Shown here: positions 17,702 to 48,438 of the stretch, piece by piece
Numbering within the stretch: the first letter of the stretch is position 1
Layout: the number at the start of each line of letters is the position of its first letter
DNA from: Bacteroidia bacterium
GTDB taxonomy: Bacteria; Bacteroidota; Bacteroidia; J057; JANWXU01
DNA length: 48,438 bases
NCBI GenBank assembly: GCA_025057395.1
Contig: JANWXU010000015.1
Coordinates: 1 to 48,438 of the forward strand
Reading direction: 5' to 3'
Position numbers and translations under genes: made by a program
The notes under the pieces: model-generated
Database searches by the model: none
What the model saw: the letters and a program-made list of their open reading frames with translations, nothing else
Told to the model about the DNA's origin: nothing

Positions 17702-20700
17702 CTAGCGCTGCAAAAGCAATTTGAAATACCGTGTTTTCGTATCTTTATCACTAATGCCCAAAATATACAAACCAGAGGGTAGCGAAGAAAAGTCTAAATT
17801 AATTATAGAAAGGGGAGAATCTATTTTTTGACTCCAGCATTTTTTACCATCGCTACTCCAAAGTTCTATAGAGTTTATATTATTTTCCTTAGCCCAAATT
17901 ACAGTTATCACACCTTGACTAGGATTGGGATAAATATTTACTTCCGTAGGCACTTCTGAAAATTCTATACTCGTAACTTGAACTCTAAAACTTTGACTCG
18001 TGGACCATTCTGAGGCGTAATCTCCACAAATGCTCCTCACACTTACTTCATATTCACCCTCTTCTAAATTACGAAATTGATAAAAGGTATCGTTTACAGT
18101 AATCTCTGGTTTCCATAGAAGCTCTTCTTTCTTTTTATAACGTAATTCATAAAATTCAGCGCCTACTACTCTTTGCCACACTACAAGTGGTTCGTTACTG
18201 ATATTCTGCACAATAATAGAAGGCGGCGTAGGTAAGGGGTTAACTATAAGTGCTACCACCGTAGAATCACTTATACATCCAAAACGCGAGTCATGGGTGC
18301 GTATGTATAAAGTTTGACTTTGATTAAGATTAGGAATACTAAATTCCCAAGGACTCTTATAACTGATAGCAATGGGGATAGAAATTTGAGGAGTAGTATA
18401 AATTTGTAATTGATAATTGGATGGCATTGTACTAGGGTACTTTACAGTGAGCGTTACAGGTCCTGGCCCACAACGAACCACATTTGTAGCTTGGGGAGCC
18501 AAGGGGATAGGATGTACTACAGCTAGAACAGGTAAGCGCTTAGAAGAACTACAACCACTAGCCAAGGAATAAGTCTCCAGGTAAAAACTTGTTGTTTGTG
18601 TAACTAGGGGCGTTACTAGTATCATTGGCAATTCGTTAGCCTCGGAAAGCAAATTTCCGCCTACGGGTCTATCATACAGTCGAACACCATCCAGCCTTGT
18701 TATTTCGGGGCGAATGGTAAAGGTACCAGGTCCACAACGACTTAAAAGGGTAGGACCAGTTGGCAAAGGTGGCTCCTCCTCCACTCTTACTACTACAGGA
18801 GTACATGCACTAAAACAAGGTGGACAGGTTCCTCCTATACAAATCATGCCCTCGGCAGGGTTCCAGGCATGTAAATAAAAAGTAGTAGTAGTAGATACTT
18901 CAGGTGTTTCTAGAACATAGGGAGGCTCATCTGCTGCGGCTATAGAATTATCCCCCACATACGGCGTACTGTATCGAACCCCACAAGTGGTATATAGTCG
19001 AATACCCTTACCTGGTACTCTTCCCATTGCAGCTATTATTTTAGCACTCCCTTTTCCACAAATAGTTACACTTCTTGGAGCAATAGGCGCATCTGGAACA
19101 GGCATAATTCTTAAGCCTACAGGTAGCCTTCTTAAACTTCTACAGCCTGTAGTAGTATCTTTTGTTTCTAGGAAATAAGTAACATGGGTGGTAAGCCCTG
19201 AGATAATTAGCTGAAAGTATTGGCGATAATTACTTTTGTTTACAGCGAGCACCAAAGAGTCGGCAGTACTAGAAGTATATAAAAACACATCATGTCCATT
19301 GCTGGGTCCTAGCTCCACCTCAATTTTTGCAGTATTAGTTCCACATCCTAAGGGAGAAGAAGTAATATTTTGCGGAAGTTCTGGTGTACGATGAATAATA
19401 ATAGGTACTGCAGTAAATTCCTGGTCTAGTGAGCAAGCTGCAGGCCATACACCCTTAACATAGTAAGTAGTACTACTTCTTAAATTAGGAGTAGTGTAAA
19501 TGTAGGGAGGATTATTTAAAGTGGCCACAGGGCGAGCAGTTGGAGAAGAATAAATTTCAAAAACTTGATTATGAGGGAAATCGCCCAAAATCGAAAGACT
19601 AACACTACCTGCTCCACAACGAGGTAGGGCTATAACATTGAAAGGTATAGGATTCACCATCAAAGACTGAGTAACCTTTCGGGAAGTACAAGCCCCGCTT
19701 ACAAATTGTAGACTCACTATTTTTGCTCCGCCTTCTTGAAAGATAAAAGATTTTACTTCAGTTGAACCTTCTATCAAAACAGGAGGGGTAGCTTCCCACA
19801 ATAAAGTCATATTAGAATTGGAATTTATACATCTTGCTATAATCGGTCGATTTTTACAATAGGCTACTAGGCGCTCAAAAACAAAATCGGGAGTAGGTAA
19901 GTAAATTGTTTCAAAAGTTGCACTGAAGGGAGCCACAACTTTGCCATCTTCTCCCCTAAGTGAGTCGCTAGGAGTAATAGGAGCATAAGAAATATGATAT
20001 TTCGGTAAAGGGCCTGGATTCAACCGAACAGCCAAGCGTAGTATTCCTTTTTGACCCTGCTTCATGCAAAAAATATTTGAGATAGGACAAATTTGATTTT
20101 GACTATTAGTAACCTGAAAGTTTGTAGGAATAACCCCAACGTTACAATTAAGAGGACTATCGAATTCTAGAGCAATTTGTACAATTGTATCTGCATACAA
20201 ACAGGTAGGGGCAATAATGTGCTGAAGTTCAACAAACGGACTAATACTACAACTACCTGTGATACGCAAATTAAAATTTTCTAAAGGTACTTGCCAACTG
20301 TTGAGCATAAGTACATACTCCTGCCCTGCAGTTACGCTTAAACCTGGCATCATAGGAATATCCCGTGAGGCATGGCTAATAGGGTAGTCTGCTATAATAC
20401 TTGTATCTAGCCCTGTAATACCAGGCGTAGAGGAAAAATTACAGCGCATTAAGGGAGCATTTGGTAATTCTGCACAAGAAAGCCCTGTAATATTATACAA
20501 TAAAAAGTCATAGTCCTTATCAGTTTCAATTATCAAGCCCAACGTGCCACTACGATATACCCGAAAACGAAACCACACTGAATGTGTTTCGCCACTGCTT
20601 AAGCACGTTTCTCTTAAGACCTCCCTCTGTCGACCATAACCTGTATACACATGAGAATTACTATAGAAGCGGGTTCGTAATAAAATAGCGCTCTCGCAAT

Positions 20701-20875
20701 CTTGCTCAGCATTGCTGAGGGCTACTATCTCATTATTTTTTTTCTGTACTTTTTCTCTTTGGCTAATTTGAGCAAAAGAAAGCTGGTTTAATACCAAAAA
20801 AACAAAAGTTATTATACTCAACCCAACTTTGTAGTAAGAATAACTCAATAAGCGTACCATATTTCTAAAGTCCAT
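17702..20875 (-). CDS. Large T9SS cargo protein with Ig-like repeats, FN3 domain and type A sorting domain
   Basis: The product is 1057 residues. The N-terminus has a signal peptide (LSIITFVFLVLNQLSFAQ). The N-terminal domain has the conserved SGETHSVWFRFRVYRSGTLGLII pattern common in Bacteroidota secreted proteins. From about residue 410 there are five roughly 95-110 residue repeats starting RCGAGSVSLSI, GCGTNTAKIEV, ICGKGSAKIIA, RCGPGTFTIRP and RCGPGPVTLTV, each ending in strands like TTTFYLHA and a VNPxP linker. An FN3-like domain (about 870-960, VVGAEFYELRYKKKEE) follows. The C-terminal T9SS type A sorting signal starts at VNIYPNPSQG and ends SGLYILGISDKDTKTRYFKLLLQR. The protein is expected on the cell surface or released; an adhesive role is inferred. 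The start could also be the Met at 20860. Confidence 0.85.
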   Translation of the reverse strand: MDFRNMVRLLSYSYYKVGLSIITFVFLVLNQLSFAQISQREKVQKKNNEIVALSNAEQDCESAILLRTRFYSNSHVYTGYGRQREVLRETCLSSGETHSVWFRFRVYRSGTLGLIIETDKDYDFLLYNITGLSCAELPNAPLMRCNFSSTPGITGLDTSIIADYPISHASRDIPMMPGLSVTAGQEYVLMLNSWQVPLENFNLRITGSCSISPFVELQHIIAPTCLYADTIVQIALEFDSPLNCNVGVIPTNFQVTNSQNQICPISNIFCMKQGQKGILRLAVRLNPGPLPKYHISYAPITPSDSLRGEDGKVVAPFSATFETIYLPTPDFVFERLVAYCKNRPIIARCINSNSNMTLLWEATPPVLIEGSTEVKSFIFQEGGAKIVSLQFVSGACTSRKVTQSLMVNPIPFNVIALPRCGAGSVSLSILGDFPHNQVFEIYSSPTARPVATLNNPPYIYTTPNLRSSTTYYVKGVWPAACSLDQEFTAVPIIIHRTPELPQNITSSPLGCGTNTAKIEVELGPSNGHDVFLYTSSTADSLVLAVNKSNYRQYFQLIISGLTTHVTYFLETKDTTTGCRSLRRLPVGLRIMPVPDAPIAPRSVTICGKGSAKIIAAMGRVPGKGIRLYTTCGVRYSTPYVGDNSIAAADEPPYVLETPEVSTTTTFYLHAWNPAEGMICIGGTCPPCFSACTPVVVRVEEEPPLPTGPTLLSRCGPGTFTIRPEITRLDGVRLYDRPVGGNLLSEANELPMILVTPLVTQTTSFYLETYSLASGCSSSKRLPVLAVVHPIPLAPQATNVVRCGPGPVTLTVKYPSTMPSNYQLQIYTTPQISIPIAISYKSPWEFSIPNLNQSQTLYIRTHDSRFGCISDSTVVALIVNPLPTPPSIIVQNISNEPLVVWQRVVGAEFYELRYKKKEELLWKPEITVNDTFYQFRNLEEGEYEVSVRSICGDYASEWSTSQSFRVQVTSIEFSEVPTEVNIYPNPSQGVITVIWAKENNINSIELWSSDGKKCWSQKIDSPLSIINLDFSSLPSGLYILGISDKDTKTRYFKLLLQR

Positions 20876-30352: not shown

Positions 30353-31522
30353 TTATTCTTGCAAATGGACATGGAAAATAAGGGTGGCATTAGGTGGTAT
30401 GGCAGGGGGCATACCTTGTGCACCGTAACCTAACTCTGCGGGTATAATTAATACAGCCTTGCTCCCCTTCTTAAGAAGAGCTATGCCCTCCTCCCATCCT
30501 TTGATTACCTGCCCTGCGCCTAGTTTCAACTTAAAAGGCTCACCGCGGTTAAAAGAACTATCAAAAACTTTTCCGTCTTCAAGCATCCCGTGGTAGTGTA
30601 CAAATACCTCTTCACCTACCTTAGGCTGCGGCCCCCTTCCTTCTTCAATAATTACGTACTGCAGTCCTGAGGCTGTCTTCTGAGCCTTAGATTTATCATA
30701 AGCATATGGCTTAAAAGGTTCAAACTTTTCAGCCTTTAAAACGTGCAAGCGCATTACTAACTTTCCGGGAAAATTAGCGCCTTGCGGACCTAGGTTTTTG
30801 GGAATTACAAAAACGCCCTTACCCCCCTCTTTTAACATCATCAGCGCCTCTTCCCAACCCGCAAAAATTTGACCACTCCCTAGTAAAACAGTCTGGGGCT
30901 CACTATCAAAAGTACTACCCAGTTCTTGTTTTCCCGCCGAAGCATGATAGTGCAATTTTACCCGCATCCCTTTCTGAATAGGCGCTCCATTACCCTCTTC
31001 AATGATATGATACTCTAAACCTGAGGGTGTTTTCTTAAGCTTGGTAGAATCATAGGCATAAGGTACATACCCTTCCTTCACTTGAAGAAGTTCTACATGA
31101 AAATATAAAGTAGAGTTAGGGGGAATTTTACCTTGAGCCCTATCTCCATAACCCAAATTAGGCGGAACAATCAGTACTGCCTTAGTACCCTCTTTTAGCT
31201 GAGCAAAACCCTCCTCCCAGCCTCGAATCACCTGCCCAGCCCCTAACTTAAATTTAAACGGCTCGCCCCGATTAAATGAACTATCAAAGACTGTATCATT
31301 AGCAAGTAAGCCATGATAGTGCGCTATAATAACGTCCCCAGCTACTGGCTTGCGGCCCGTTCCTTCTTTTACTATTACATACTTCAAACCCGAAGGCAAA
31401 CTAATAGCCTGGGTAGAATCATACACATAAGGCGGTTTATCATTTGCTGCCTCCTCTGTCTTTTTTTCGGAACAACTTACAATTCCGCTAATAATTAGTA
31501 AGATAAGTAAATAAATAAGCAT
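30353..31522 (-). CDS. Triple-domain FKBP-type peptidyl-prolyl isomerase lipoprotein
   Basis: The 389-residue protein begins with a lipoprotein signal (LIISGIVSC, lipidated Cys17), so it is membrane-anchored in the periplasm or outer membrane. Three FKBP domains follow (about 38-150, 160-272 and 280-389), each preceded by a PY(A/V)YD... linker and SGL(K/E/Q)Y. Domains 1 and 3 keep the full active-site pattern: FDSSFNRGEPFKFKLGAGQV, IRGWEEGFAQLKEG, and PPN(S/A)TL(Y/I)FHVxL. Domain 2 has lost the NRGEP segment (GSTFDSEPQTVLLGSGQIFA) and the PPNSTLxF loop, and probably serves as a spacer or substrate-binding module. Domains 1 and 3 are much closer to each other than to domain 2. A chaperone-isomerase role in folding exported proteins is inferred. 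Confidence 0.95.
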   Translation of the reverse strand: MLIYLLILLIISGIVSCSEKKTEEAANDKPPYVYDSTQAISLPSGLKYVIVKEGTGRKPVAGDVIIAHYHGLLANDTVFDSSFNRGEPFKFKLGAGQVIRGWEEGFAQLKEGTKAVLIVPPNLGYGDRAQGKIPPNSTLYFHVELLQVKEGYVPYAYDSTKLKKTPSGLEYHIIEEGNGAPIQKGMRVKLHYHASAGKQELGSTFDSEPQTVLLGSGQIFAGWEEALMMLKEGGKGVFVIPKNLGPQGANFPGKLVMRLHVLKAEKFEPFKPYAYDKSKAQKTASGLQYVIIEEGRGPQPKVGEEVFVHYHGMLEDGKVFDSSFNRGEPFKLKLGAGQVIKGWEEGIALLKKGSKAVLIIPAELGYGAQGMPPAIPPNATLIFHVHLQE

Positions 31523-31650: not shown

Positions 31651-32664
31651 ATGAAGCTAAGATATCATTTATTTTCCTTTTTGTTCATTGCTTCAATAGG
31701 TGCTATTGATATAACACTTAATGCTCAAAATGAACAGGGTATTAAATTCTTTAAGGGTTCTTGGGAAGAGCTTTTAGCTACTGCCAAAAAGAATAAAAAG
31801 CCATTTTGGGTAGACTTTTGGGCTCCATGGTGCGGCCCCTGTCGATTACTCAACCAAACAACTTTTACAGATAAAAATGTTGCAGAATATTCTGCCAAAA
31901 TATTTCTTGCTTATAAGATTAATATTGACGAAAACCCGGGCCAGGGCCTTGCAAGTAAATATCGTATTTCAAGTATCCCAGCAATTGTTTTTTTTGACCA
32001 TAATGGCAATGAAATAGGTCGCGTAGTAGGATATCAAAACCAAACTGCTTTCTTAGAGTCTTTAAAGAAATATACCCCCAAAAGTGCAGAACGTTCTTTG
32101 CATAAAGCTACTACAGTAGTAGAAAACTCCATTGAAGCCTACCTTGCGCTCAAAAACGAATTTTTCATGCAACTTATTGCTCCATTTAGAAAAGATACTC
32201 TTTTCTGGAACTACCTTCAACAAGCCAAAGAATATGGAAGAGCAAACAAAGATTGGGAATTTGAAGAAATTACCCAATTAGCACAAAAGGAACTACCCGC
32301 CGAAAAGCTTTGGTATCTACAAGCTTTTTATGAACTAGGCAACCAAAACTATAACGGTTTTATCCAAAGAGTTAACACACTTTTCGAACAAAATAAGCTA
32401 GCGCCTTTTGAACTGCACTGGCTAGCCTGGCTTTGTTACGATATGGAAGATATTCCCCATGAACCCTTTCGCTGGATAAACTCCCTGGCTCGTGAGGTGC
32501 CCTCTTATGAAATTTTGGATACAAAAGCAGCCATGTTGCTTAAAGATAAAAAGGTAGATCTGGCAAAAGAAACCATTGCAGCTGCACTGAAACTTGCTAA
32601 AACTGAAAACAAAGACGATACTTCTACCAAAATCTTACTGGAACTTACTAAAGCGGCTAATTAA
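31651..32664 (+). CDS. Exported thioredoxin-domain protein with a C-terminal helical extension
   Basis: The 337-residue protein has a signal peptide (FSFLFIASIGAIDITLNAQ). A thioredoxin fold covers about 30-145, with the canonical redox site WAPWCGPCR (Cys61 and Cys64), a cis-proline in ISSIPAIVFF, and GYQNQTAFLESL. The remaining about 190 residues (150-337) are largely helical, with tryptophan-rich segments (FWNYLQQAKEYGRANKDWEF, ELHWLAWLCYDMED), and resemble the TPR-like C-terminal regions of Bacteroidota exported thioredoxins. It probably acts on periplasmic disulfides or folding intermediates. It is first in a tight cluster: the next start follows after 3 bases. Confidence 0.9.
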   Translation: MKLRYHLFSFLFIASIGAIDITLNAQNEQGIKFFKGSWEELLATAKKNKKPFWVDFWAPWCGPCRLLNQTTFTDKNVAEYSAKIFLAYKINIDENPGQGLASKYRISSIPAIVFFDHNGNEIGRVVGYQNQTAFLESLKKYTPKSAERSLHKATTVVENSIEAYLALKNEFFMQLIAPFRKDTLFWNYLQQAKEYGRANKDWEFEEITQLAQKELPAEKLWYLQAFYELGNQNYNGFIQRVNTLFEQNKLAPFELHWLAWLCYDMEDIPHEPFRWINSLAREVPSYEILDTKAAMLLKDKKVDLAKETIAAALKLAKTENKDDTSTKILLELTKAAN

Positions 32665-40148: not shown

Positions 40149-43100
40149 TTAGGGCTGAAGCAGTAACTTAGCTTGACTACGCTTTTGCCCTTGTATAAAT
40201 TCTACTACATAAATACCAGCAAGCACACCTTGTAAGTCTATAAATTGTGTACCTATTCCATTTTCTGGAAGCTCTATAGTAGCTTCATAGATAACTTGCC
40301 CTGCTACATTACGAATTACAATCTGTGCTGGTAGTAAATTTTCAGCTTCATAGCGAATTGCAAATATACCTTGGCTAGGATTAGGATATATTTCTACTAC
40401 GGGATTTTTCTCAGCCTCCTGACTGCCTAGCTTAGTATTTGGCATACTAAACTCTTGCACCAAAGAGAAGGGGGTAAATTGACCATTCCGGGTAGAGCAT
40501 AAGGTACAGTTAGTACGAATACGAATACCATACCTTACACCTGGTGTTAAGCCTACCAACAAAACCTCGCTCGTAGGATGAGTTACCAAAAACTGTTGCC
40601 ATGTAGCAGGGTCTTGATTAGCAGGACCATACGCAATTACATAACAAACAGCTCCCGTCTGATTAGGTATCCAGCGAAGTAGAGCCGTAGTACTGCTCTC
40701 AATAACAACAGGTAACAATTCGGGAGTACTGCAACCTTGCGGCACTTGCGAACGCAAAGTAGTGGCCACTACACTTTCTGATGGCTCAGAACTAGCTCCA
40801 TTCGCACACAGTACTATTAAACGAAATTCGTAAGTAGTACTAGAACTTAAACCAGTTACAGTAAACGAGGTGGTAGTGATACCTGTTATGGCGTTGAAGC
40901 CAGCATTTGAACTTAATACTCGATATTGAATAGTATAACTAGCTGCTCCGCTTACTGCTGCCCAGCTCAGTGCAACACTCGATGTATTAACACTTGTTAC
41001 CGTTGGTGCCGCACTTGGAACTAAACTTCTAACAGTATAGGTTTGTGTACTACTGCACCCTTCTGCATCTCGAACTACAACTGTGTAGTTACCTGGTACT
41101 AAATTCGTAAATTCACCTGTAGAGTTAGTAACATTACCTGGAGAAAGATTATAAGTATAACTTCCGCTACCTCCTCCTCCCCTTACTCTTAGAACGCCTC
41201 CACCATTACATCCTGCATTAAGACTTTCTATCAAAGTTTGAGTTACTGCCGGTCTTACCGTCACTCTACGAGTAAGTCCGTTACATCCAAAAGCGTAAGT
41301 GCGCTCACCCACACCATTAGGTCTTACCACTAAGCGGAAGGGAGAAACATTAACTTCCATACCTATTTGGCCTACTCCGTTTTCAGAATATGTCAGAAGC
41401 CAGGGGCCATTGCCTGCAAATGTTACTTCAAAACTCGTCTCTTCTCCTTGGCATAATACTGCATTCTGAGCTTGGCTTACACTTTGTACGTTAGCACCCC
41501 TTCGAATTGCTACATTCGTAGTGTAGGTAATACTAGAACATCCTTGTACTATTAGGGTTACTCTATAAACTCCACTATCTGCTAATGTAACGCCAATTCG
41601 ACTTACGCTAGCTCCTGTAGCTATAAAGTTTCTCGGACCACTCCATCGATATTCTGCGCCCGCTACCAAAGTAGCATTTAATTCCAGATTCTGTCCTTCA
41701 CAAAGGGGTCCATTATTAGTTACATTAACTTCACCTAATCCTTCTCGAATAACCACTAAGGTAGAAACCGTAATATTACCACACGCCGGAGAATTTACTT
41801 CTACTGTATAATAACCTGCTGCTTCAGGCACAATATTTTCTATAGTCGGATTTTGTAAAGTTGAACTAAAACCATTAGGACCGCTCCACCGATAAGTAGC
41901 ACCAGGAATAGAAGTTACTGTCAGCCTAAGAGTAGTTCCCGTACAAACAGGTCCATTATTACTCGCTACAATATCTATTAGCGACGGATTTACTATCACA
42001 GTGGTAGTACGCGTTACTAGGCCGCACCCTGGTAAAAGTACACTTACGTTATAAGCGCCAGAGTTTAGCGAAGTTACGCCCTGTACAATAGGACTAGCTT
42101 CTGTACTCGTAAAGCCTGCCGGTCCACTCCAAAAATAACTAGCCCCTGGAACAAAAGTTGCGTTCAAAACTAACACACCATTAGTACAAAGTGGACCATT
42201 ATTTAAAGCAACAATTTCTGCTGGTGAAGGATTCACCACCACTTGCGTAGTGGCTGTGCGGCTTCCACACTGGGGTGTACTTACGGTAACTGTGTAAATG
42301 CCACTATTAGCGGTTGTTGGATTATTAATTACTGGCGAAGCTAAGGTACTGGTAAAACCATTAGGTCCACGCCATAAGTAAGTTGCATCTACAGAAGCAG
42401 AAGCCGTCAGGGCTAAACTACTACCCGAGCACACAGGACCATTATTACTTGCCGTAATCGAAGCTATCGAAGCATTTACTATTACCTGAGCAGTAGCACT
42501 TAAAGTGCCGCAGCCGGGTACATTTGCTGTTACTGTATAAGTACCGCCGTTTGTAGTATTAGCCTGCGGAATATTAATAGCAGCGCCTGTCGCGCTAAAG
42601 CCCGCAGGACCTGACCACGTATACGTAGCACCCTGTATTTGTGGCACACTAAGAACCAAATTTTGGCCCGCACAAATAGGAGAATTCGTAGTAATTGCAA
42701 AATTACTTGCTCCTGGCACTACTGTAACCGTAGTAGTAAGCGTACGAGTACCACACCCGGCAGAGCTTATTGTTAAGCTATATACACCACTATTAATAGT
42801 AGAAGCCGAAGGAATAACAGGATTAACCTCTGTAGAACTAAAACCAGCAGGTCCACTCCAAACATAGCTAGCCCCCTCTACCCCTGTAGCACTAAATTGT
42901 AAACTACTACCCTCGCAAACTGGACTATTATGCCTAATATTTACTTGCGATAAACTCGGATTAATAGCTATTTCTACATTAAGTCTTACAATACCACATG
43001 CAGGAATACTTGCCGTAAGCTCATAAGTACCTGCGTTTTCTGATGTTACATTACTTATAGTAGCGATAATTCCAGTAGCAGTAAAATTGCGTGGACCGCT

Positions 43101-46100
43101 CCATTGGTATATAGCACCTGCTACTGGCGTAGCACTTAGGCGAAGAGTGCCCCCCTGGCAAACTGGAGAATTTGTATTAATCCTTAAACTATTAACTCCC
43201 GGATTGACAATAACATTTGTACTGCGGGTAATACTTCCACATCCTGGTGTTTGCAATACTACTTGGTATACACCACCATTAGCTGGGCTAACTCCAAATA
43301 TACTAGGAGCACTTTCTGTAGAAGAAAAGCCACTAGGCCCACTCCAGCTATAAGTAGTTTTAGGACTAACCCCATTAACATTGAGATTCAAAACTCCCCC
43401 TTCGCAAAGTGGACCATTATTAATAACAGCAGCATTCTCCAAGCTTTGATTAACTTCTACTGCAACTGTACCACTTACGCTTCCACAGCCAGGTACACTT
43501 ACTGTTACGCTGTAAACACCACTATTTGCTGTGGTTAAATTACCTTGACTAACGTTTGCTTGGGTAGCAGAAAAACCTTCAGGTCCACTCCAGCTATAGC
43601 TAGCACCATTTATGCTAGGGGCACTAAGCTGTAACACCCCCCCCTCACATAGCGGACTATTACTTGATGGAGTAATACTTGACGGCAGAGTATTGACAAC
43701 CAAAGCAGTAGTCCTAGTTACAGGCGCACATCCAGTAACTGTTACTGTGAGGGTATATATGCCCGCCTGATTAGCCCGGACTCCTGAAATAATTGGATTT
43801 TGCTCCGTAGAACTAAAGCCATTAGGTCCGCTCCACCGATAAGTAGCATTTTCTATAGGAGCAGCACTAAAACTTGCCACTCCACCCACACAAACAGGAG
43901 AATTACTACTCGCACTAGCATTAGTAGGAGCAGGAATCACCTGAACATTAATATTTGCCGAAGCCGAAGGACAACCTGCTCGGCTTACAATAAGAGAATA
44001 TTCTCCCTCAGCATCTAAAGTTACATTATTAATAGTAGGGTTACGCTCTGCAGAAGTAAATCCATTAGGTCCACTCCAGCTATAAGTTGCCCCAGAAATA
44101 CTACTTACACTAAAGCGCAAAGTAGTACCGCTACAAACTGGGCTATTACTATTTATCACGGGTGTAGGCGGTGGAGTATTTATAACTACCGTTGTGGTAC
44201 GGATAATGGGATCACACCCAGGAACTGTAACTATCAATGTATAAGTACCCGCATCTGTGGTTTGCACATTAGTACGCGTAGGATTCTGCTGCGTAAACCT
44301 TATCCTATTAGGACCTAGCCATTCGTAAGTAGCACCTGGTACTGCTGTAGCACTTAAATTCAACGTTCCTCCTACACAAATTGGAGAATTACTACCTATT
44401 TCAATCTGCGGAACCGAATTAATAGTTACATTAACAGAACCTGTTTTAGGTGCACATCCTTCAGTTACTACCGTAACGTTATACGTTCCACTTTGTGCTG
44501 CAAGCGCATTATTAATTACTGGGTTCTGTAAAGTAGAAGTAAAACTATTAGGACCTGTCCATACGTAACTTGCGCCTGGTGTTCCTACTGCCGTAAGTCG
44601 TAAAGTTCCTCCTTCGCAAATTGGAGAATTACTTTGGGGGTTCGGACTCTCGGGCGTTAAACGAATAGTAGGAGTGTGAGTAAGAGATACAGAAGGACAA
44701 CCCGGTATGTTTACCGTAAGGCTATAAGTACCAATGTTTGCTGTTGTAGTAGTACTAATACTTGGGTTTTGTGTAGTAGCACTAAAACCATTAGGCCCCT
44801 TCCAAATAAATGAAGCACCGGGAGCATTATTAACACTAAAATTTAATGTTTCGCCTGTACAAACTGGTGAGTTGCTACGAATTACGTAATCAACAGGCAA
44901 AGGTGAGTTTACTATTACTCGAACTGTACCAGTACGGCTACAAGAGCCTAAACTTACTGTAACAGTATACTCCCCACTACTAGCAGTCGTAACACTAAAG
45001 CCACTAATTGTCTGATTTTGTCCAAATGCAATATAATCATTAGGACCTGCCCACTGATAAAGGGCCCCATTGGTTGCTACAGCACTTAAAATAATATCAT
45101 TACCAGCACAAACAGGAGAATTACTACTTGGCGAAGGATTTGCTGGCGAATTATTTATTACCACATTAGTAGTTTGCGTTGCACTTGTACAATTAGGTAT
45201 AGTAGTAGTAAGCGTAAAAGTACCAGCAAAGAAAGGAGCAATGTTGGGTATAGTTACTTTTCTCCCGGTAAACACAAACCCGTTGGGGGCTGTCCATTGA
45301 TAAGTTGCGTCTGTAATTCCTCCATTAGCAACTGCCTGTAAATCTAAAGTAGAGCCCGCACAAACAGGAGAATTAGAGACAATAGTTACGGCACTTGGGT
45401 CTTGTACTACTACCGTAGTAGTAGCGGTAGCAGTAGCCGAGCAGCCTTCTACAGTCACTACCACTGAATAAATCCCCGCATTTGCTGAATTTACATTATT
45501 TAAAGAAAGAGTAGGAGCAGTAGTAGTGGAACTAAATCCATTGGGTCCACTCCACTGATAACTTTGAGCGCCGCTTACATTAGTAGCTGTTAATTGTAAA
45601 TTCTTCCCTATGCAAACTGGAGAATTACTTTGTAAAGTAATAGCTCCAGGCGGTGTATTTACGGTTACATTTACCGTAGCGCTTATTGTACTACACCCTG
45701 GAGTACTAGCCACTAAGGTATATACTCCTGAGCGTAAAGTATTTACATTTGCTATTGTAGGGTTCTGCTGTGTAGAAGAATACCCTGCAGGACCACTCCA
45801 CTGGTAACTCACGTTATTTAATAACGGAGTAGGACTCGCCGTAAGGTTCAAGTTACTACCTGTGCAAACCACTTGCGCCGGGCTTACCGCTATGCTAGTA
45901 ATTGGCGCATTTACAACTACATTAGTCGTAGTAGTAGCGGGGGAGCAACCCGATACTGAGGCTGTAACACTATATGTATAAGTACCTGGTGCAGTAGGTG
46001 CTTGAGTGGTAACGGTAGACGCACTTTGAGAAAGGCCAGGCCCGCTCCAATTATAAGCAACTCCCGAAGCAACATTCGAAACTGAAAGCGTTAACACACC

Positions 46101-48438
46101 CCCCGTACAAATAGGTAAGACATTATTTACTATCGGAGTAGGGGGTGGAATATTCACTACAATGGGCCCTACTGTGCCTGTTATTGCACTACAAGGGGGT
46201 ACGCTAATTGTTACCGAATAAATTCCTGCGGCAGCGGTTGTGATATTTGTAAGCGTAGGATTTTGAACTGTGCTTGTAAACCCATTAGGACCACTCCAAG
46301 TGTACGTTGCATTGTTACTAGGATTGGTAATTCCTAGAGACAAAGTTTGCCCAACGCAAGTTGGGGAATTCGTTACAAAACTGGGTGGGTTAGGCGGCGT
46401 ATTTACCACTACTGTAGTAGTACCCGTTACTGGAACACAACCCGGAACAGTTACCGTAATGGTATATACCCCCGCATTTGAGGTAGTTATATTAGCAACT
46501 GTCGGATTTATAATTGTACCGCCTCCACTAAAGCTAGGAGAACCAGGACCCGCCCAGCTATAACTAGCCCCTGGCGAGGGAGTTGCATTTAGCTGCAACT
46601 GCTGCCCTGCACATAACGGACCGTTATTGGTAGGATTAGGAGCAACAGGAGGTTTATTTACCGATATGGTAATAGTACTGGTTTTATTAGCACATCCTGG
46701 AAGACTTGCTGTTACGGAATATACCCCTGCTTTCAAGGTAGTAACATTATTCACTGTAGCTGATGTACCTACTTGTGCAAAACCATCGGGTCCTTGCCAA
46801 GTATAGGTGGCACCTGAAACCGGATTTAGAACTGCCAAGTTAATATTTTGCCCTTCACAGATCGTAGTGCTGTTTGCTTGAATAATGGGCTGTGCTAGGT
46901 CATTTACTACTACATTTATGCTATTAGATACAGGATTACAACCTGGTAAACTTACCGTAATACTATATGTACCTGCATTAAGAGAAGTAACATTATTTAT
47001 TGGTGGCGGCACAGCAGAATTACCTGTAAAACCTGCAGGACCACTCCATGTATATGTAGCTCCGAGTACTGTGTTTGTACTAAGTGTAAGCGTGCTCCCT
47101 ACACACACAGGATTTGAATTGACACTAATAATAGGTGTAGAAAGGGCAGGACTTACAACTACCGGAGTAGATAGAGCCAGCACACACCCGGGTGCACTAA
47201 AATTCAATACCCAAATTCCACTTGCAGCTGTAGTAACACTAGGAATACTAAATGAAGCACTACTTTGACTTTGCCCACTTGGTCCTTGCCAAGAATAGGT
47301 AGCACCTGTGTAGTTAGTGGCAGTAAAGCTAAGTACATTTCCGCTACATACCGGAGAGTTGGTTGTAATTACTGGGTCATAAACCGTAACTGCTACTTGG
47401 CCTGATGCCGGAGCACAGCCTGGTGTAGCAACCGTTACATTATAAACCCCTACCGTAGAAGAATTCATATTAAAACGAGAAGGATTCTGCAGCGTAGAAC
47501 TAAACCCTGCAGGACCACTCCATGTATAAGTAGCATTTGGTGTAGCTGCAACTGTAAGATTTAGTGTGCCATTTACGCATACAGGACTATTACTCGTAGG
47601 GGCTGGAGGTGAGGGCTGGTTACTTATAAGCACATTTATTGATTGTACGTAAGTGGTGCATCCTGGAACAATTGCAGTAAGTACAAAAACGCCACTATGC
47701 TGAGAAACTTGCGCATTGTTAATAATTAGATTTTGACTGTTATAAGTAGTGTTATCTGGGCCTACCCAAGTATAACTAGCAGAAGATATAGCAGTAGCTG
47801 TTAGTAAAAGAGTATTTCCTGCACATACAGGAGAATTACTACCTAGGTTAAAAGTAGTAGGGAGTGTGATAACATTCACTGAAGTTTGACCTACTAACGA
47901 AGTGCAACCACTAACAGGCTCCACATATTGGAGAGCATAAAGGCCAGTATATGTATTATTAGCGTTAAGACGTGTAATTGTAGCACTTGTACTCGTTGCA
48001 GACCATCCATTAGGTCCACTCCACAAATAACTTGTTTTACCCGCCGGACCAGTTAGTATTAAATTGGAGCCACTGCAAATTGGGACATTCGTTATAATTG
48101 TAGGTGCTACTGGTGTTGAATTAATAAGCAAGTTCGTTGTACTACTAGCGCTGCAGCCTGCCGTATTAGTTGCCGTTAATGTGACAACAGCATTCCCCGC
48201 ATTAGCCCAACTTACCACCAAACTCGTACCCGTACCACCCGCCGGTGAAGAAACATTCCCCCCAATTACCCAACTATATGTCTCCCCAACAACAGGATTC
48301 AATACCCCTAACGTATAATTTTGACCCGTACAATAAGGAGGCGATGCAACACTAATCGTAGGAATACCCGGAGAAGCTGAAACCACAGTAGTAACAATAT
48401 TAGAAGCAGCAGTACAATTGTTAGCATCGGTTACCACC
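40149..48438 (-). CDS. Giant T9SS-secreted surface protein with about 27 Ig-like repeats (N-terminus outside window)
   Basis: The frame is open for 2762 codons and runs off the window, so the N-terminus is missing. Nearly all of it is a tandem array of about 81-residue modules. Each begins with NSPVC-G--L-L-A, continues GA-Y-WSGP-GF-ST--NP-I, and ends G-Y-VTV--PGC----T--V-VN--P. Two cysteines per module suggest one disulfide each. I count 27 such modules plus a divergent first one. The C-terminal part has an unrelated beta domain, an SprB-type repeat (GGGGSGSYTYNLSPGNVT), two FN3 domains, and a T9SS type A sorting domain from VEIYPNPSQG to KRSQAKLLLQP. It is expected to be a very large cell-surface or released adhesin; adhesion or gliding is inferred. 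A terminator follows the stop. Confidence 0.9.
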   Translation of the reverse strand, partial: VVTDANNCTAASNIVTTVVSASPGIPTISVASPPYCTGQNYTLGVLNPVVGETYSWVIGGNVSSPAGGTGTSLVVSWANAGNAVVTLTATNTAGCSASSTTNLLINSTPVAPTIITNVPICSGSNLILTGPAGKTSYLWSGPNGWSATSTSATITRLNANNTYTGLYALQYVEPVSGCTSLVGQTSVNVITLPTTFNLGSNSPVCAGNTLLLTATAISSASYTWVGPDNTTYNSQNLIINNAQVSQHSGVFVLTAIVPGCTTYVQSINVLISNQPSPPAPTSNSPVCVNGTLNLTVAATPNATYTWSGPAGFSSTLQNPSRFNMNSSTVGVYNVTVATPGCAPASGQVAVTVYDPVITTNSPVCSGNVLSFTATNYTGATYSWQGPSGQSQSSASFSIPSVTTAASGIWVLNFSAPGCVLALSTPVVVSPALSTPIISVNSNPVCVGSTLTLSTNTVLGATYTWSGPAGFTGNSAVPPPINNVTSLNAGTYSITVSLPGCNPVSNSINVVVNDLAQPIIQANSTTICEGQNINLAVLNPVSGATYTWQGPDGFAQVGTSATVNNVTTLKAGVYSVTASLPGCANKTSTITISVNKPPVAPNPTNNGPLCAGQQLQLNATPSPGASYSWAGPGSPSFSGGGTIINPTVANITTSNAGVYTITVTVPGCVPVTGTTTVVVNTPPNPPSFVTNSPTCVGQTLSLGITNPSNNATYTWSGPNGFTSTVQNPTLTNITTAAAGIYSVTISVPPCSAITGTVGPIVVNIPPPTPIVNNVLPICTGGVLTLSVSNVASGVAYNWSGPGLSQSASTVTTQAPTAPGTYTYSVTASVSGCSPATTTTNVVVNAPITSIAVSPAQVVCTGSNLNLTASPTPLLNNVSYQWSGPAGYSSTQQNPTIANVNTLRSGVYTLVASTPGCSTISATVNVTVNTPPGAITLQSNSPVCIGKNLQLTATNVSGAQSYQWSGPNGFSSTTTAPTLSLNNVNSANAGIYSVVVTVEGCSATATATTTVVVQDPSAVTIVSNSPVCAGSTLDLQAVANGGITDATYQWTAPNGFVFTGRKVTIPNIAPFFAGTFTLTTTIPNCTSATQTTNVVINNSPANPSPSSNSPVCAGNDIILSAVATNGALYQWAGPNDYIAFGQNQTISGFSVTTASSGEYTVTVSLGSCSRTGTVRVIVNSPLPVDYVIRSNSPVCTGETLNFSVNNAPGASFIWKGPNGFSATTQNPSISTTTTANIGTYSLTVNIPGCPSVSLTHTPTIRLTPESPNPQSNSPICEGGTLRLTAVGTPGASYVWTGPNSFTSTLQNPVINNALAAQSGTYNVTVVTEGCAPKTGSVNVTINSVPQIEIGSNSPICVGGTLNLSATAVPGATYEWLGPNRIRFTQQNPTRTNVQTTDAGTYTLIVTVPGCDPIIRTTTVVINTPPPTPVINSNSPVCSGTTLRFSVSSISGATYSWSGPNGFTSAERNPTINNVTLDAEGEYSLIVSRAGCPSASANINVQVIPAPTNASASSNSPVCVGGVASFSAAPIENATYRWSGPNGFSSTEQNPIISGVRANQAGIYTLTVTVTGCAPVTRTTALVVNTLPSSITPSSNSPLCEGGVLQLSAPSINGASYSWSGPEGFSATQANVSQGNLTTANSGVYSVTVSVPGCGSVSGTVAVEVNQSLENAAVINNGPLCEGGVLNLNVNGVSPKTTYSWSGPSGFSSTESAPSIFGVSPANGGVYQVVLQTPGCGSITRSTNVIVNPGVNSLRINTNSPVCQGGTLRLSATPVAGAIYQWSGPRNFTATGIIATISNVTSENAGTYELTASIPACGIVRLNVEIAINPSLSQVNIRHNSPVCEGSSLQFSATGVEGASYVWSGPAGFSSTEVNPVIPSASTINSGVYSLTISSAGCGTRTLTTTVTVVPGASNFAITTNSPICAGQNLVLSVPQIQGATYTWSGPAGFSATGAAINIPQANTTNGGTYTVTANVPGCGTLSATAQVIVNASIASITASNNGPVCSGSSLALTASASVDATYLWRGPNGFTSTLASPVINNPTTANSGIYTVTVSTPQCGSRTATTQVVVNPSPAEIVALNNGPLCTNGVLVLNATFVPGASYFWSGPAGFTSTEASPIVQGVTSLNSGAYNVSVLLPGCGLVTRTTTVIVNPSLIDIVASNNGPVCTGTTLRLTVTSIPGATYRWSGPNGFSSTLQNPTIENIVPEAAGYYTVEVNSPACGNITVSTLVVIREGLGEVNVTNNGPLCEGQNLELNATLVAGAEYRWSGPRNFIATGASVSRIGVTLADSGVYRVTLIVQGCSSITYTTNVAIRRGANVQSVSQAQNAVLCQGEETSFEVTFAGNGPWLLTYSENGVGQIGMEVNVSPFRLVVRPNGVGERTYAFGCNGLTRRVTVRPAVTQTLIESLNAGCNGGGVLRVRGGGGSGSYTYNLSPGNVTNSTGEFTNLVPGNYTVVVRDAEGCSSTQTYTVRSLVPSAAPTVTSVNTSSVALSWAAVSGAASYTIQYRVLSSNAGFNAITGITTTSFTVTGLSSSTTYEFRLIVLCANGASSEPSESVVATTLRSQVPQGCSTPELLPVVIESSTTALLRWIPNQTGAVCYVIAYGPANQDPATWQQFLVTHPTSEVLLVGLTPGVRYGIRIRTNCTLCSTRNGQFTPFSLVQEFSMPNTKLGSQEAEKNPVVEIYPNPSQGIFAIRYEAENLLPAQIVIRNVAGQVIYEATIELPENGIGTQFIDLQGVLAGIYVVEFIQGQKRSQAKLLLQP
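41490..48100 (-). repeat. Tandem protein-coding repeat array, about 27 units of about 243 bp
   Basis: Each unit encodes one Ig-like module. In the stretch I measured, the plus-strand trace of NSPVC recurs at about 43157, 43403, 43646, 43893, 44134, 44378, 44618, 44858, 45108, 45361 and 45616, so the spacing is 240-255 bases. The units have diverged in sequence but keep Cys, WSGP and PGC positions. Open plus-strand frames within the array are by-products of its composition. Confidence 0.85.

Follow-up and report, generated by a model that had tools for sequence, protein, structure and literature searches.

The window, which is the whole stretch of 48,438 nucleotides analysed here, comprises the entire contig C66 of an assembly of 4.08 Mb (244 contigs, 96% complete) from an uncultured bacterium with a Bacteroidota-type genome. 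At one end of the contig, an open reading frame on the reverse strand (40149–48437) encodes a giant T9SS Ig-array protein of at least 2762 amino acids. The frame is still open at the contig end with no stop before it, as an earlier sequence-only reading had recognized in placing the start beyond the contig, and none of the other contigs overlaps this end, so that the N-terminus was not recovered from them. The neighbouring genes encode DprA, UvrB, a ChaN-like protein, an asparaginase and an OmpA-family protein, mostly housekeeping functions that give no functional hint. A scan with UvrB, leaving out the window's genome, gave UvrB proteins of ~60% identity or less from a mixture of phyla; what is clear is a place among Bacteroidota-type genomes that carry a T9SS. 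A second T9SS protein of 1057 amino acids, with Ig_7 domains and a Por_Secre_tail domain, is encoded at 17702–20875 on the reverse strand. Less than 10 kb from the giant gene, a protein with three matches to FKBP-type PPIases adjoins a thioredoxin-domain protein (30353–31522, reverse strand; 31651–32664, forward strand).

In the giant protein, 28 modules could be separated, with a period of 77–85 residues, a spacing of 54–59 residues between the first and second cysteine, and a mean pairwise amino-acid identity of 37% (range 16–53%). Module 1 (residues 24–108; 48114–48368, reverse strand) is PKD_6-like, with Cys36 and Cys95, and modules 2–28 (residues 109–2314; 41496–48113, reverse strand) are Ig_7-like, each with one cysteine in the AB turn and one in the FG loop. 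The sequence-only reading had described about 27 repeats of about 81 residues with fixed Cys, WSGP and PGC; the repeats and the motifs were borne out at a level far above chance, the number was one too low and the PKD_6-like nature of the first module is added here. Across 21 modules, C13, W32, G34, P35, G57 and C68 are invariant and the WSGP-type and PGC-type motifs nearly so, and an HMM derived from the array's own modules matches 27 of the 28. Matches to Ig_7, Ig_2, PKD_6, fn3 and Por_Secre_tail/TIGR04183 all score above their curated cut-offs. The modules, which pass the gathering score and are predicted to adopt an Ig sandwich fold, are thus members of Pfam Ig_7 (PF19081, Ig-like domain CHU_C associated) and PKD_6 (PF19408), but these families define the domain alone and not the linkage between domains.

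The Ig array is followed by two further two-cysteine beta domains, which had been overlooked when the C-terminus was correctly described as FN3 domains and a type A sorting domain. The first (41247–41495, reverse strand; Cys2329/Cys2385) carries a 'GxxPWxLxY' motif, and the second (41022–41246, reverse strand; Cys2410/Cys2461) resembles the SprB repeat by motif and has no family match. FN3 domain a (40755–41021, reverse strand) has a single cysteine, Cys2544, in its FG loop and is the proposed last link of the chain discussed below, whereas FN3 domain b (40473–40754, reverse strand) has four (2569, 2598, 2644 and 2647). The type A sorting domain, identified by Pfam and TIGR04183, lies at 40158–40391 on the reverse strand, with 32.0 bits for Por_Secre_tail (cut-off 27) and 31.5 for TIGR04183 (cut-off 23). 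The genome also encodes the SprA translocon component (SprA_N, E=4.6e-126), in agreement with the T9SS export proposed earlier. Paralogues with intact starts have apparent signal peptides, as judged by eye. GldJ-like matches in the genome were below cut-off only.

AlphaFold2 was used to model three consecutive modules (43686–44414, reverse strand), with an alignment of 79 sequences taken from the window and other collected loci. The model shows three Ig-like sandwiches (pLDDT 97.6, pTM 0.84), and when it was compared with the PDB by Foldseek, all eight GhpA entries (9FLP, 9FLS, 9FLU-9FLY and 9G8B) ranked first with E ~1e-20, followed by animal Ig proteins. The compact Ig fold per module that had been expected is thereby supported, and since this fold is found together with a type A signal and a SprA gene in the genome, the protein would form a long surface fibre. 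It is probably an adhesive or contact fibre; attachment, gliding and contact with prey, as proposed earlier, may be among its roles.

By sequence as well, GhpA from Aureispira sp. CCB-QB1 is nearest to the array among PDB proteins (E=0, 1453 bits), and the C..G / GC cysteine positions are the same in the aligned stretches listed. GhpA is described as a monomer of 5,898 residues that assembles into heptamers in the grappling hook of Aureispira (PMC13319060, citing Lien et al. 2024, Science, doi 10.1126/science.adp0614). The window protein is thus a further T9SS giant Ig-array protein with GhpA-like repeats, homologous to those of GhpA and of the same fold. No GhpA match was found for its last 446 amino acids, however, and because the match is confined to the array, orthology to GhpA cannot be claimed for the protein as a whole. 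That it is a true grappling-hook orthologue serving ixotrophic predation, a reading compatible with the disulfide pattern proposed below, is therefore improbable, even though GhpA is both the closest PDB relative and the best fold match of the array. Instead of one hook gene, the host genome contains numerous paralogues that share this C-terminal architecture, and T6SS VipB/TssC was not found in this 96%-complete genome. The T6SS is said, in work by Lien et al. of 2024, to be the killing arm of Aureispira ixotrophic predation.

GhpA thus takes the place of SprB, the T9SS gliding adhesin of Flavobacterium with which the protein had initially been compared. Both are giant T9SS-exported surface proteins with repeats, and there is the motif-based SprB-repeat-like domain near the C-terminus, but SprB belongs to the type B substrates and has SprF as its carrier (PMC12635249), whereas the window protein combines a type A sorting domain with an Ig-like array. 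Another giant Ig-array adhesin, from the Gram-positive Mobiluncus mulieris, has 51 Ig-like domains and covalent cross-links, with ester, isopeptide and disulfide bonds that are all intra-domain (PMC10619420); the putative bridges of the window protein, in contrast, appear to be inter-domain.

This distinction follows from where the cysteines lie. The 66 cysteines of the window protein are separated by spacings that alternate between ~54 and ~27 residues. The AlphaFold2 model places Cys13, 94 and 175 in the AB turn, immediately ahead of strand B, and Cys67, 148 and 229 in the stretch that connects strands F and G. The canonical Ig disulfide connects the middle of strand B with the middle of strand F, and these two strands run in the same direction. 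Compared with the canonical sites, the first cysteine lies ~9 residues closer to the beginning of B, and the second ~7 residues past the end of F. Given the shared direction of the two strands, these shifts point away from each other and would place the pair at opposite poles of the sandwich. By the same topology, the AB pole of module n is expected to face the FG pole of module n+1. Both cysteines are retained in 779 of 805 modules (97%), and in 223 of the 236 modules from other genomes.

The explanation that we consider likely, reasoning from sequence and predicted fold, is that the T9SS-exported, GhpA-like Ig fibre is a covalent daisy chain in which a disulfide joins the AB-turn cysteine of domain n to the FG-loop cysteine of domain n+1, with both ends capped. 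Each internal domain of the fibre, which would consist of ~30 tandem beta-sandwich domains, mostly Ig-like with repeats homologous to GhpA, would carry its AB cysteine at the C-terminal pole and its FG cysteine at the N-terminal pole. The 66 cysteines can be arranged as 30 AB-FG(n+1) pairs, the four in FN3 domain b, and the FG cysteines 8 and 95, whose AB partners would fall off the contig. The chain is predicted to close at the C-terminus by an FG-only domain, in the window protein FN3a with Cys2544, or elsewhere by a cap cysteine, and at the N-terminus by an N-cap cysteine or a first domain that lacks the FG cysteine. After export through the T9SS by means of the sorting domain, the chain would fold and oxidize into a cable with joints, its anchor close to the C-terminus and its tip at the N-terminus. 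The bridges would fix the angles between neighbours, limit bending and unfolding at each joint, and hold the chain together when one module unfolds. One disulfide per module had been proposed earlier, and while that number is right, the bond is probably formed between neighbours and not within the module; the stabilizing role then suggested for the disulfides would be strengthened by such bridging.

Clean losses of single cysteines were too few for a test, and the pairing was therefore examined at the ends of arrays and through double losses. With AB(n) paired to FG(n+1), the last domain should have an FG cysteine only or an added cysteine at its bottom, and the first should lack the FG cysteine or have an added cysteine at its top. 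For C-terminal ends, fixed gap limits were applied of 66-92 residues for FG-only domains (mostly 81-87) and 10-20 for cap cysteines (mostly 13-15). Among ~15 genomes, 61 of 72 C-terminal ends fitted, 39 as FG-only and 22 as cap, and 11 were of other types; the limits had been chosen after the first proteins were inspected, and the array ends of one genome are paralogues and not independent events. In loci collected later, whose 31 ends were previously unseen, 22 fitted the same limits and nine did not, four of which (L227, L231, L236 and L242) fit if an extra intra-domain cysteine or a slightly longer domain is allowed. Several misfit ends turn regular in this way with an extra intra-domain cysteine; others, such as L248, do not fit, and neither does the first module of L104.

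Within the genome of the window, 17 proteins, including that of the window, end in an FN3a domain with its sole cysteine in the FG loop. In eleven others, FN3b or the sorting domain comes directly after the last Ig-type domain, whose G strand is followed by an extra cysteine (for example, VVVRNCTDIC in L065, VVINSCK in L057 and VQNCK in L061). The last module of L104 has no AB cysteine, and the extra cap cysteine is absent as well. Cap cysteines were also found in L189-L192 and L208 of genome G004, and FG-only ends in L197, L201, L202, L204, L207 and others from other genomes, including ends that precede C-termini other than type A. The N-terminal starts are less regular: 17 of 57 have N-caps, as in L100 (AQPCDNPGSTNSPVC), L105, L058 and L057, and three of 57 are AB-only, L190 being one in which the first module has no FG cysteine; most of the others follow other cysteine-bearing domains.

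A joint loss of AB(n) and FG(n+1) inside an array, with FG(n) and AB(n+1) retained, is predicted by the daisy chain, unlike by a bridge within the module. Two such cases were found, L191 and L208, both from genome G004, with gaps of 86-27-88 and 80-28-90, respectively. Loss of both cysteines of the same module, which would leave a gap of ~108 inside an array, was not observed in ~2,300 spacing units; the only formal match, in L082, was discounted as lying outside an array. In the later-collected set, neither type of loss occurred inside an Ig array, and the formal matches were FN3 tandems. At residues ~1790-2300 of L240 (G000:C232), tandem FN3 domains have an N-terminal and an FG cysteine in each domain, with gaps of ~76 and ~24, apparently an intra-domain cross-link distinct from the proposed Ig daisy chain.

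These patterns also bear on the other ways in which the cysteines could be connected. Bonds between parallel chains, stapled side by side in a multi-chain filament, are brought to mind by the homology of the modules to GhpA, a heptamer (PMC13319060), but such bonds predict neither the end rules nor the AB(n)/FG(n+1) co-loss along one chain, and we regard them as improbable too. The bridge within each module that was put forward in the sequence-only reading agrees with the exactly two cysteines conserved in each module and with every domain having an even number of them. That reading had named cysteines lying apart as grounds for refutation, and by this measure its intra-module version fails. 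Such a bridge would have to span the sandwich from the AB turn at one pole to the FG loop at the other, as Ig topology places them, and it leaves the terminal FG-only cysteines, the cap cysteines and the co-losses unexplained, all of which favour pairing between neighbours and make the intra-module bond very improbable. Least probable is an ordinary flexible Ig fibre whose cysteines remain reduced or have some other binding partner, which would suit a 96%-complete genome in which neither VKOR nor DsbB homologues were found, but not the regular closure of array ends and the 97% conservation of both loop cysteines in an exported protein.

The modules of the array are old. Module DNA identity within the window array is at most 73%, with a mean of 61%, and recent slippage is therefore unlikely from the sequence; recent tandem duplication was likewise rejected, as Tandem Repeats Finder reported nothing for the array. 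A search of 30 relatives for a syntenic full-length orthologue gave paralogue-like matches only, weaker than those to paralogues of the same genome.

The window protein is one of dozens of giant Ig-array surface proteins in its genome. In a first-look count, the genome contained 1374 module candidates, compared with no more than 231 in any of 99 relatives, and the module was present in 66 of the 100 genomes. At least 150 ORFs carry a T9SS sorting domain and sum to at least 306,056 amino acids, or at least 22.5% of the assembly; at least 56 are of 2000 amino acids or more and at least 23 of 4000 or more, the longest among those listed reaching 7941, although these lengths are from stop to stop and some ORFs are truncated at the edge of a contig. 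That the genome is unusual in how many sorting domains it has was considered and rejected (248 first-look candidates, against up to 480 in relatives), and it is array length and module number that are unusual in this genome. Runs of X in the translations, representing masked or unassembled bases, break giant ORFs in L058 (5683-18210) and L095 (1-10401), on G000:C88 and C241.

We find it somewhat more probable than the opposite that AB(n)-FG(n+1) bonds with caps at both ends are general among giant Ig/PKD arrays of Bacteroidota, possibly including GhpA, with the organism of the window as an extreme case. No description of inter-domain disulfides in such arrays was found in the open-access literature searched, and the inter-module staple rule may be new, although the deposited GhpA maps may already show inter-module bonds. 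If the rule holds, the connectivity of a fibre could be read from its sequence, and hundreds of Bacteroidota proteins labelled "Ig-like/PKD, T9SS" would be covalently jointed cables, with caps and joints as a design principle for load-bearing fibres in gliding, adhesion and predation. Nearly a quarter of the genome of the window organism encodes T9SS-tagged proteins, many of which would then be such fibres, and the question would arise how they are oxidized in a genome in which neither a VKOR nor a DsbB homologue was found. This negative result, with apparently paired surface cysteines numbering in the thousands, counts against the daisy chain. As to composition, the part of the window protein encoded at 41022-48437 (reverse strand) is almost uncharged, with 0.4% K, 0.7% D, 1.9% E and 1.9% R, and T and S together make up ~26% of its residues.
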